Positions 33,429 to 37,124 of a DNA stretch of 64,000 nucleotides are shown one piece after another. The stretch lies in contig NZ_CP034145.1 of assembly GCF_003856835.1 (NCBI RefSeq), positions 1,302,001 to 1,366,000 of the forward strand, in the 5' to 3' direction. The number at the start of each line of letters is the position of its first letter. Position 1 is the stretch's first letter. A program made the translations under genes and the position numbers. Origin of the DNA: Haloplanus aerogenes (lineage in GTDB: Archaea; Halobacteriota; Halobacteria; Halobacteriales; Haloferacaceae). The notes under the pieces were generated by a model, which was given only the letters and a program-made list of their open reading frames with translations, was not told where the DNA came from and searched no databases.

Positions 33429-33542
33429 ATTGTCTGACGTGCGCATGACGCTGGCCAGCTCGCCATTCGCGAGGGCGTCAGACGCGCGCGTGACAACAGG
33501 CGGAAAGATAATGTGGTTGCCTTCGAAAGGCGTGGGCATACC

Positions 33543-34700
33543 ATGGACTCCATCGTGGAGGATGCAATCGAGGATGCCGAGGAGCCGGGGGATGGGGCCG
33601 CGGCCGACATGGACGCTACCCGAGAACCTGCGCCCGACGCGTCGAACGACGGATCGAATCGCACCGGAAAGATGACCGACGAGGAACTTCAGGACGTACT
33701 GGAGGACCTCCAGACCGATATCACGGTCGTCGGCTGTGGGGGCGCCGGCGGCAACACGGTCAACCGCATGGCGGAAGAGGGGATCAAGGGGGCCAACCTC
33801 GTCGCCGCCAACACCGACGTGCAGCACTTGGTCGACGTGGAAGCGGACACCAAGATCCTGATGGGCGAGGAGAAGACCGGCGGCAGGGGAGCAGGTTCGC
33901 TCCCGCAAGTCGGTGAGGAAGCCGCCATCGAGAGTCAGGACGACATCTACGGCGCCATCGAGGGCTCGGACATGGTGTTCGTCACGGCCGGGCTGGGAGG
34001 AGGAACCGGCACCGGCTCCGCGCCCGTCGTCGCCGAGGCCGCTCGCGAGTCCGGCGCGCTCACCATCGCCATCGTAACCACGCCGTTCACCGCGGAGGGT
34101 GAAGTTCGGCGCACGAACGCGGAGGCCGGCCTCGAACGCCTGCGCGACGTGGCCGACACCGTCATCGTCGTGCCCAACGACCGCCTGCTCGACTCGGTCG
34201 GGAAACTCCCCGTCCGGCAGGCGTTCAAAGTGTCCGACGAGGTGCTGATGCGCTCGGTCAAAGGCATCACCGAACTCATCACCAAGCCTGGTCTCGTCAA
34301 CCTCGACTTCGCCGACGTGAAGACGGTGATGGAGAAAGGCGGCGTGGCCATGATCGGCCTCGGCGAGAGCGACTCCGAGCAGAAGGCACAGGACTCGGTG
34401 CGCTCTGCCCTGCGGTCGCCCCTGCTCGACGTGGATATCTCCGGCGCCAACTCGGCGCTCGTCAACGTTACCGGCGGCACCGACATGGCCATCGAAGAGG
34501 CCGAGGGCGTCGTCGAGGAGATTTACGACCGGATCGACCCCGACGCCCGCATCATCTGGGGTACCTCCATCGACGAGGAACTCGACGGCACGATGCGGAC
34601 GATGATCGTCGTCACGGGCGTCGAGTCGCCACAGATCTACGGCCGCGGCGAGGACGCCCCGGCGCCCGAACCGGCCGACGACATCGACTACGTCGAGTAG
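33543..34700 (+). CDS. ftsZ1: Cell division protein FtsZ1
   Basis: Tubulin-like GTPase that forms the division ring. The 385-residue protein has the tubulin signature [18 protein letters not shown], the nucleotide loops [15 protein letters not shown] and AANTDVQHL, and the T7 loop [15 protein letters not shown] that completes the GTPase site. The N-terminal 50 residues ([17 protein letters not shown]) are a disordered acidic extension as in Haloferax FtsZ1, which supports subtype 1. The ATG at 33543 is preferred over an upstream alternative. Compared with relatives, a foreign minus-strand gene now separates it from secE-spt5. Confidence 0.96.
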
Positions 34701-34796
34701 CGTCGTCGCTCACCAGTTTTTGCGGGACGCTCGTCACTCGTCGGTACGACCCCGGCGAGTTCGGGGTGTCGGACGTGTACGACGGTGGCCGATCAC

Positions 34797-36365
34797 TCAG
34801 CGGTGGATGGACCGCGTGAGCGTGAAGACGAACAGCGCGATGAGGAAGGCGCCGACGAAGCCCTCTATCTGTGCGAGGAGTCTGATCCAGGGACTGCCCA
34901 CGTCCTCGGCACCCCCGAGGACGAGCGTGATGAACGATTCGAGGCTGAGGATGAGATAGCCGATCGGCATCTCGTACGGGGGGATCGGCTGCGCGATCGC
35001 GAAGAGCCCGCTGAATACGAGGATCGTGCCCACGGACACCCCGATGACTCGGGAGGGACGTTCCCCGTACCCCGCCGTCAGGTTCAACAGCGTGTTGGCT
35101 CCCCATCGGCCCGCCGCGGCGATTCGCGCCGTGATCGGTTCCGACGGATCGAGCACGGTCGGCCAGTACTGTTCACGTCTGTAGAGCATTTCCCGCCGAA
35201 AGAACTCGGCTGCGGCTTTGGTGTCTCCAATCTCGTTGGCGCCGTTTTTCGCCTTGAGATACGTACTCTCCAGATCGCCATCGGACGGCGGCCGCGTGGC
35301 TTCGAGGCCCGGAATCTCGACTACGTCGTGGATACACCACTCGGCACTGTGGAGGGCCTCGCGGTAGCTCCCGAAATCGAACCCGTCGAAGGTCGTATGG
35401 AGCAGTCGGAAGTGATCGAAGAGAGCGGTTGGTGGCTCACCGTCGGCCAACTCCACATTTCCGAGGCGAGCGCTCGTGAGGTCGTACACGAGGGTTCCGT
35501 GCTCCGGGAGATAGAGTCGGCCGTCGGGGATCGCCGTCTCGCGCAGATCGATACAGCAACTGCCGTCAGCGAGGTCGAGGTCCTCGAACGACGCCGATGC
35601 TCCGATAACGGTTTTCTGGAGGTTCACGCGGTGGGGCACGGTCGCCTGATCGAAGTAGACACGATCCCCGAATCGGGACCCCGAGAACGTCGCGTGGGAA
35701 AACGTGGTGAGTTTGAATCTGACGACCGTCTCGAACTCCGCCTCGCGGAAGTGCGCCTTGTCGAAGGTGGCTTCGCTGAAGTCGACCGGGCCACCGAACC
35801 GGGCCATGTGGAAGTTCGCTTCGGCGAACGTCGTCTTGTACCCCCACACACCAGCCGCGAATTCGGCTTCGACGAACCGGACTGGCTCCGCGAACGTGGC
35901 CTTACTGAGATACACTTCGCCCTCGAACGTGACCTCGGTACAGATCGGCCGTTGCTGAAACAGCGCCCCTTCGAGCGAGAGGGGCTGGCGGACGATCGCG
36001 TACCGCAAGTTCGTCTCGCCCTCGAATCGCGCGTGCCGGAGGTCGATCTTGTGATTGTCTCCACACTCGATGATCCGGTGATCGAGGTCGAGCGTCCCGA
36101 ACCGGGCACCGATGAACTGTTTCGGCTCTTTGCCGATCGTGTCTATCTTCGACAGCAACGCTTCCTCGACCGCCCGGTCGTCTTTGGCGTCGACCGGCTG
36201 GTGGAACAGACACCGGTCGGCTCCCTCCGGCGCGTCGTGCGGACAGCGCCACACCCCGTCCTCGTTCAGTAGCTTCCCATCGAGTGGGCTAGACTGTCCG
36301 TTTTCCGCTCGCCACTCCGCGGGGTCGAACGTGAACGGACACCGATCGCCGGACGCCTCGACCAT
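34797..36365 (-). CDS. Pentapeptide-repeat protein with degenerate channel-like C-terminus
   Basis: A 522-residue protein. The N-terminus has a Cys/His cluster (CPFTF, CPHDAPEGADRCLFHQP) that could bind zinc. Residues about 85-260 are pentapeptide repeats of the A(D/N)LXX type (ATFAEPVRF, ARFGGPVDF, ATFDKAHF), which fold into a right-handed beta-helix. The end has two transmembrane helices around LSLESFITLVLGGAEDVGSPW, resembling a two-helix K+-channel pore without the TxGYGD filter, and a final helix AFLIALFVFTLTRSIHR. Function is unknown. It lies between ftsZ1 and secE on the opposite strand, and reads less GC-biased than its neighbours. TATA ~33 nt upstream of ATG 36365. Confidence 0.8.
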   Translation of the reverse strand: MVEASGDRCPFTFDPAEWRAENGQSSPLDGKLLNEDGVWRCPHDAPEGADRCLFHQPVDAKDDRAVEEALLSKIDTIGKEPKQFIGARFGTLDLDHRIIECGDNHKIDLRHARFEGETNLRYAIVRQPLSLEGALFQQRPICTEVTFEGEVYLSKATFAEPVRFVEAEFAAGVWGYKTTFAEANFHMARFGGPVDFSEATFDKAHFREAEFETVVRFKLTTFSHATFSGSRFGDRVYFDQATVPHRVNLQKTVIGASASFEDLDLADGSCCIDLRETAIPDGRLYLPEHGTLVYDLTSARLGNVELADGEPPTALFDHFRLLHTTFDGFDFGSYREALHSAEWCIHDVVEIPGLEATRPPSDGDLESTYLKAKNGANEIGDTKAAAEFFRREMLYRREQYWPTVLDPSEPITARIAAAGRWGANTLLNLTAGYGERPSRVIGVSVGTILVFSGLFAIAQPIPPYEMPIGYLILSLESFITLVLGGAEDVGSPWIRLLAQIEGFVGAFLIALFVFTLTRSIHR

Positions 36366-36392: not shown

Positions 36393-36402
36393 GCGTATTT
36401 AA
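36393..36402 (-). promoter_or_regulatory. TATA box of the pentapeptide-repeat gene
   Basis: GTTTAAATAC on the minus strand lies about 33 nt upstream of the ATG at 36365, consistent with a short or absent leader. Confidence 0.5.
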
Positions 36403-36470
36403 ACGTCCAGTACCCGGCCACCCCGGATGGGGTTGCTTGGACACCCGTCCACTTCCGCGTGGCTCATCTC

Positions 36471-36490
36471 CTTATCAATAGATAGAAAAA
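36471..36490 (+). promoter_or_regulatory. Probable promoter of secE-spt5
   Basis: The AT-rich run CTTATCAATAGATAGAAAAA lies 22-41 nt before the secE ATG. It shows that secE-spt5 has its own promoter despite the inserted gene. Confidence 0.45.
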
Positions 36491-36511
36491 GCCGGCTGGT
36501 CTAGACCCCCT

Positions 36512-36685
36512 ATGGACGTCAAGTACGACCTCGCAAGCTACGTCCGCGTGCTCAAGATGGCGAGCACGCCGTCGTGGAACGAGTTCTCGCAGATTGCCAA
36601 GGTCGCGGGGGCGGGTATCTTTCTCATCGGCCTCCTCGGCTTCGTCATCTTCGCTGTCATGACCTTCCTCCCCGGGGGCGCATAG
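36512..36685 (+). CDS. secE: Protein translocase SEC61 gamma/SecE subunit
   Basis: A 57-residue single-helix membrane subunit of the Sec translocon. The amphipathic N-terminal helix ([17 protein letters not shown]) precedes the transmembrane helix ([20 protein letters not shown]). It is the correct length and has the conserved T-P-S-x-x-E segment. ATG 36512, one base upstream of spt5's start (stop then ATG), so the two are cotranscribed. It is too short for many gene finders. Confidence 0.93.
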
Positions 36686-36686
36686 C

Positions 36687-37124
36687 ATGGGTATCTTCGC
36701 CGTCAAGACCACGGCCAGTCAGGAGCGCACCGTCGCGGACATGATCGCCAGCCGCGAGGAAGACGAGATTCACGCCGTCCTCGCGCCCGACTCGCTCACG
36801 AGTTACGTGATGGTCGAGGCCGACAACAGCGCCGTCCTCGAACGCGTGATGGACGAGATACCCCACGCTCGCTCGATCGTCCCCGGCACCTCCTCGCTGA
36901 CCGAGGTGGAACACTTCCTCTCGCCGACGCCGGACGTGGAGGGCATCGCCGAGGGCGACATCGTCGAACTCATCGCCGGCCCGTTCAAGGGTGAGAAGGC
37001 CCGCGTCCAGCGCATCGACGAGGGGAAGGATCAGGTGACGGTCGAACTGTACGAGGCGACCGTCCCGATTCCCGTCACGGTCCGTGGCGATCAGATTCGC
37101 GTCCTCGACAGCGACGAACGGTAG
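36687..37124 (+). CDS. spt5: Transcription elongation factor Spt5 (NusG)
   Basis: A 145-residue NusG/Spt5. The NGN domain begins [19 protein letters not shown] and the KOW domain is at the C-terminus ([20 protein letters not shown]). It forms a heterodimer with Spt4 and clamps RNA polymerase for processivity. Length typical of archaeal Spt5. It is one base downstream of secE in a conserved gene pair. ATG 36687. Confidence 0.96.

Follow-up and report, generated by a model that had tools for sequence, protein, structure and literature searches.

A haloarchaeal pentapeptide-repeat protein with a K+-channel-type pore domain that lacks the selectivity filter

In Haloplanus aerogenes, a minus-strand gene lies between ftsZ1 and secE and encodes pentapeptide repeats joined to a C-terminal module that resembles a K+-channel pore without the TxGYGD selectivity filter. 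The locus raises the question of whether this module truly descends from K+ channels, when its filter was lost, how the gene came to occupy this site, and what a protein of this build might do. We analysed it within a stretch of 64,000 nucleotides (contig NZ_CP034145.1, positions 1,302,001 to 1,366,000, forward strand), hereafter the window.

Gene and protein architecture

The gene is an intact open reading frame of 522 codons, running from ATG to stop. Its features, all on the minus strand, are the following:

34797..36365, minus strand: coding sequence of 522 aa, consisting of a C3H motif, a pentapeptide beta-helix, a helical linker and a two-TM pore domain without the K+ filter (open reading frame, Pfam, homologues)
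36396..36403, minus strand: TATA-box-like TTTAAATA, about 31 bp upstream of the ATG (read directly from the sequence)
36201..36341, minus strand: N-terminal C3H motif, residues 9-55, probably zinc-binding (invariant columns)
35502..36116, minus strand: pentapeptide-repeat beta-helix, approximately residues 84-288 (PF13576 in four stretches; modelled beta-strands)
35070..35501, minus strand: conserved region and helical linker, residues 289-432, including LESTYLKAKNGANEIGDTKAAAEFFRREM and the invariant N424 (homologue comparison)
35055..35072, minus strand: GYGERP motif, residues 432-437, directly before TM1 (common to filterless and filter-bearing members)
34992..35054, minus strand: TM1, residues 438-458 (hydropathy 1.82; modelled helix, low confidence)
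34908..34964, minus strand: P-segment IGYLILSLESFITLVLGGA, residues 468-486, comprising the pore helix and the place of the filter, with TxGYGD absent, S474 and F478 invariant and G484 at 90% (homologue comparison)
34896-34949, minus strand: motif LSLESFITLVLGGAEDVG, residues 473-490 (read in the window protein)
34803..34889, minus strand: TM2, residues 493-521, with the invariant G505 at the hinge position and the conserved C-terminal R518/R522 (homologue comparison, models)

The TTTAAATA element is consistent with a leaderless promoter belonging to the gene itself. A 495-aa open frame that lies antisense to it (34785-36272, plus strand) is a by-product of high GC and not a gene. For the pentapeptide-pore gene, an accidental open reading frame was ruled out by an orthologue in Halobellus rarus (71% identity, 517 residues) and by purifying selection.

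In Pfam, the protein matches pentapeptide repeats only (Pentapeptide_3, PF13576, E 1.1e-23, four stretches). AlphaFold monomer models, built with the window protein and its H. rarus orthologue as the sole input, show beta-strands in the repeat part, with a pLDDT of about 70-83 for residues 110-220. The pore region reached a pLDDT of about 30-60 in two models, a poor outcome attributable to the input of just two sequences, and a fold search with these low-confidence models returned nothing usable. The N-terminal clusters of cysteine and histidine pointed out in the first-pass annotation are real and not due to chance, since none of C9, C41, C52 and H55 varies among 10 homologues, the most distant of which is 28% identical to the window protein; judging from this conservation, the C3H motif probably binds zinc.

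Position between ftsZ1 and secE

The genes and the conserved element that frame the site are the following:

33513..34700, plus strand: ftsZ1, left flank, with its ATG start probably at 33546 (profile matches)
36471..36497, plus strand: conserved element CTTATCAATAGATAGAAAAAGCCGGCT upstream of secE, intact and the same in relatives with an empty spacer
36512..36685, plus strand: secE, right flank (NCBIfam profile match)
36687..37124, plus strand: spt5 (profile matches)

Pfam and NCBIfam profiles bear out the names ftsZ1, SecE and Spt5 given at first reading, and the pentapeptide-pore gene does separate ftsZ1 from secE; a tRNA deacylase gene, a PHP gene and others also lie around it. We drew spt5 loci from 60 relatives and inspected the stretch back to ftsZ1. 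Of 11 congeners sampled, 7 have ftsZ1 next to secE with only a short spacer between them, so the expected order of ftsZ1, secE and spt5 is borne out as a common adjacency but not as a fixed block: elsewhere other genes intervene or ftsZ1 is distant, and in 3 of the 11 the 7 kb or so upstream of secE contain no ftsZ1. One congener carries a gene for a histidine kinase with four TM segments in the spacer (L065:1178-2341, G011), and a more distant relative carries a FilR1-type regulator there (L072:1132-1932, G055). With different single genes occupying this spacer in relatives, the site appears to be permissive. The pentapeptide-pore gene was absent from this site in every relative checked, and its presence there is private to the window genome among 12 congeners.

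The closest orthologues, with 71-72% identity, occur in three Halobellus genomes, where they are invariably flanked by an aldo-keto reductase gene and a TRAP-transporter operon. The GC3 of the window gene is somewhat low, at 0.80 compared with 0.86-0.90 in neighbouring genes, and together with the location it fits an acquisition, although not a demonstrably recent one. The suggestion of a recent insertion is not supported by the synonymous distances: dS between the window gene and the Halobellus orthologues is about 1.0-1.15, which is not below the values for the neighbouring, vertically inherited ftsZ1 (0.65-0.72) and PHP gene (0.73-0.82), giving no indication of a recent event. A recent transfer from Halobellus was rejected on the same grounds. 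Insertion by a transposon was also rejected, as no convincing flanking direct repeats or terminal inverted repeats were found.

Homology of the pore domain to K+ channels

Relatives of the window protein were found in 22 of the 60 genomes, with two kinds of C-terminus. The filter-bearing kind ends in YFSIVTFTTLGYGDIQPVG...ALVVFVLGRR and has an intact TTLGYGD, whereas the filterless kind, to which the window protein belongs, ends in YLILSLESFITLVLGGAED...ALFVFTLTRSIHR. Both have the same layout: C...W.C...C.FH, pentapeptide repeats, a YLKAK...EFF linker, GYGER and TM1-P-TM2. In the window protein, residues 479-488 read ITLVLGGAED where a TxGYG/TxGFG filter would sit. The stretch TAGYGE (residues 430-435; 35061-35078, minus strand) was considered as a relocated filter and rejected, as it precedes TM1 and is also found in relatives with TTLGYGD in the P-loop; GYGERP, being common to filterless and filter-bearing members, is not a selectivity filter although it reads TAGYGE.

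The filter-bearing relatives match Ion_trans_2 (E ~1e-10), and their profile matches solved K+ channels of the K2P, TOK and Slack types (best E 5.8e-9, others weaker). The window protein itself stays below the curated Pfam cut-off for Ion_trans_2 (PF07885), and the filterless profile gave no direct match to solved channels; the link to K+ channels is therefore transitive, passing through the filter-bearing relatives. When the filterless and filter-bearing profiles were compared, the whole C-terminal domain gave an E of 1.4e-38. Since the soluble linker could carry this score, the pore was profiled alone and gave an E of 3.7e-17, while the P-segment and TM2 alone scored 53 (E 3e-11); none of 20 column-shuffled controls exceeded 19.5. 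These comparisons support the homology of the window pore domain to true K+ channels. They also sustain the first-pass annotation on two counts, namely that the C-terminal module is a homologue of the K+-channel pore with TxGYGD missing and, with the PF13576 match, that a pentapeptide-repeat protein bearing such a module is real.

Compared with two-TM K+ channels (Ion_trans_2), the window protein is alike in the TM1-P-TM2 order, the S and F positions of the pore helix, the hinge glycine and the positive end of TM2, but differs in having a hydrophobic xxLVLGG in place of TxGYGD and in being without a Pfam family match. With the uncharacterised haloarchaeal pentapeptide-repeat channels with intact filters (for which L090:7859-11386 and L102:4296-8306 were compared) it shares the whole architecture, C3H motif, linker and GYGER; these, however, keep TTLGYGD, and in one subgroup, represented by five context loci, the neighbouring genes are conserved. 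In that subgroup (L096, L097, L100, L101 and L106, from five genomes), the common neighbours are a lipoprotein-like gene and a gene for a multi-TM protein (about 600 aa) similar to fused spermidine synthases. Two loci, L102:4296-13108 and L090:7859-12794, hold tandem giant pentapeptide-repeat channels of up to about 1390 aa, each pair with one TTLGYGD and one ITLEYVG. With Qnr, MfpA, HglK and other pentapeptide-repeat proteins the window protein shares the pentapeptide beta-helix; no channel fusion was found in a review of these proteins, from which the term "ion channel" is absent (PMC8145042), and no paper on a fusion of pentapeptide repeats with a channel turned up in the literature that we searched.

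Phylogeny of the filter loss

A wider search of 391 haloarchaeal genomes yielded 70 filterless C-termini that could be read, from at least 63 of the genomes, and TxGYGD is absent in all 70. A maximum-likelihood tree was built from 96 thinned sequences, 60 of them filterless, with two very long branches omitted, both of which are filterless and fell inside the clade in a first tree. The 60 filterless rows make up one side of a branch with a support of 100/99, found in all 200 bootstrap trees, and the next row out (L007_5, support 97/77) has a half-lost filter, TVDYGN. The filterless clade spans five families, and no matches outside the order were found at E 1e-25 in 295 genomes of the phylum. 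As read from this phylogeny, the filter was lost once, long ago, in an event common to one haloarchaeal clade and not peculiar to the window gene. The filterless pore is real but not unique, the window gene being one member of an old clade.

At locus L095:7548-9452 (G020), TTVDYGN replaces TTLGYGD in a protein that forms the sister lineage of the filterless clade and represents an extant intermediate in the loss. Other filter changes, namely TLEYVG, LTGNGS and STGVSS, have separate origins among the filter-bearing relatives. The window genome encodes a second protein of like build (L076:8847-10667; G000:C1, ~3403870) with a degenerate filter, LTGNGSL, which arose apart from the window clade.

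Another genome holds a fossil of 23 residues of a filterless pore (L082:7216-7284, G019), 91% identical to residues 500-522 and with no surrounding gene, the remnant of a copy since lost.

Constraint on the pore

Between the window protein and its H. rarus orthologue, the pore (residues 433-522) shows 92% identity and a pN/pS of 0.10, compared with 71% and 0.27 in the repeats, 57% and 0.49 in the C3H part, and 71.5% and 0.31 over the whole protein. As the most constrained part, the pore is not decaying. Across 50 filterless sequences, N424, G434, E435, S474, F478, G505 and F507 are invariant, and G484, V513, F514, T517, R518 and R522 are nearly so. The mean hydropathy of the P-segment is 1.45 in filterless proteins versus 0.36 in filter-bearing relatives, and the C-terminal positive charge is unchanged between the two kinds. 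This combination of a hydrophobic P-segment and a retained positive C-terminus fits a re-entrant loop with a cytoplasmic C-terminus, a topology that the positive-inside rule favours over a third membrane helix.

Proposed function and alternatives

The explanation that we prefer, and to which we assign about an even chance, is that of a single-gene membrane-anchored sensor with a tetrameric pore descended from K+ channels and most likely not selective for K+. The cytoplasmic C3H motif and the pentapeptide beta-helix would sense a ligand or a partner, and the signal would be relayed by the helical linker and by the GYGERP segment ahead of TM1. It would then open or close a putative tetrameric pore made up of TM1, a re-entrant P-segment and TM2 with its hinge glycine. 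Once open, this pore would pass other or mixed ions, thereby shifting the membrane potential. Lack of K+ selectivity is the most likely state because TxGYGD is replaced by hydrophobic xxLVLGG throughout the clade. It is equally conceivable that the hydrophobic P-segment blocks the pore or spans the membrane as a third helix.

The main rival, which we regard as unlikely, is that the altered domain does not conduct and serves as a membrane anchor and oligomerisation domain, the protein being a membrane-bound sensor or scaffold that signals by protein contacts. The increased hydrophobicity of the P-segment, the disappearance of all filter residues and the failure of the filterless profile to match any solved channel would agree with such a role. 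A mere membrane anchor is usually under weaker constraint, however, and here S474 and F478 in the P-segment and G505 at the TM2 hinge are invariant, in the very region where constraint is strongest. Signalling by protein contacts also lacks a conserved partner gene: no neighbour recurs across 64 context loci except within groups of close relatives, and a 19-locus cluster in the neighbour list is heterogeneous, its first member resembling a chance reading frame.

Considerably less probable is an abortive-infection-type immune pore that would depolarise the cell on virus infection, as a stand-alone counterpart of HalA. HalA combines pentapeptide repeats with a membrane pore, a layout shared by the window protein; the patchy occurrence of the family and the insertion of a single gene into the spacer are also compatible with this role. 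HalA, of the Hailong anti-phage system, is an ion-channel effector (PMC13275509). The weak match of the window protein to it (NCBIfam NF051894) scores just 15.9 bits, where the family cut-off is 250, and is confined to the repeats. No HalA was found in the window genome, no nucleotidyltransferase adjoins the gene as a HalB-type partner, PADLOC models gave no match to the window protein, and no relative was confirmed in the viral contigs of IMG/VR. A viral origin of the gene was rejected on this last result. The effector or toxin-like role raised in the first-pass annotation is likewise only a possibility; no defence model matched, and no partner gene is conserved beyond sets of close relatives.

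We give still less weight to a non-selective or modifying subunit that would co-assemble with canonical K+ channels. The pore domain remains homologous to that of its filter-bearing paralogues, but the two kinds of protein co-occur independently, genomes with filterless proteins being no likelier to carry filter-bearing ones (9/47, odds ratio 1.06, p 0.84). In the window genome itself, no pentapeptide-repeat channel retains an intact filter, and the two Ion_trans_2 matches found there belong to other proteins. Finally, a decaying channel gene whose filter was broken by drift deserves almost no credence: the filter is absent, and the fossil shows that genes of this kind do decay, but one old loss has been kept over five families, the pore is readable without stops in 70 members, and the purifying selection seen in its pN/pS refutes the idea.

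For the filterless clade as a whole, we tentatively propose, at somewhat less than even confidence, that these are haloarchaeal sensor-gated pores of K+-channel descent in which the K+ filter was exchanged once for a conserved hydrophobic P-loop, S-x-x-S-F-x-x-L-x-x-G-G, and whose selectivity or gate may now differ, while the half-lost TVDYGN intermediate survives beside them. If the altered pore conducts, it would represent a natural and old experiment on the K+-channel fold without its filter, set in cells with molar K+ and open to direct comparison of living relatives that keep TTLGYGD, the TVDYGN intermediate and the LVLGG descendants. If true, the proposed mechanism would also offer a functional context for pentapeptide repeats, of which there are few, namely that of a cytoplasmic sensor driving a pore.
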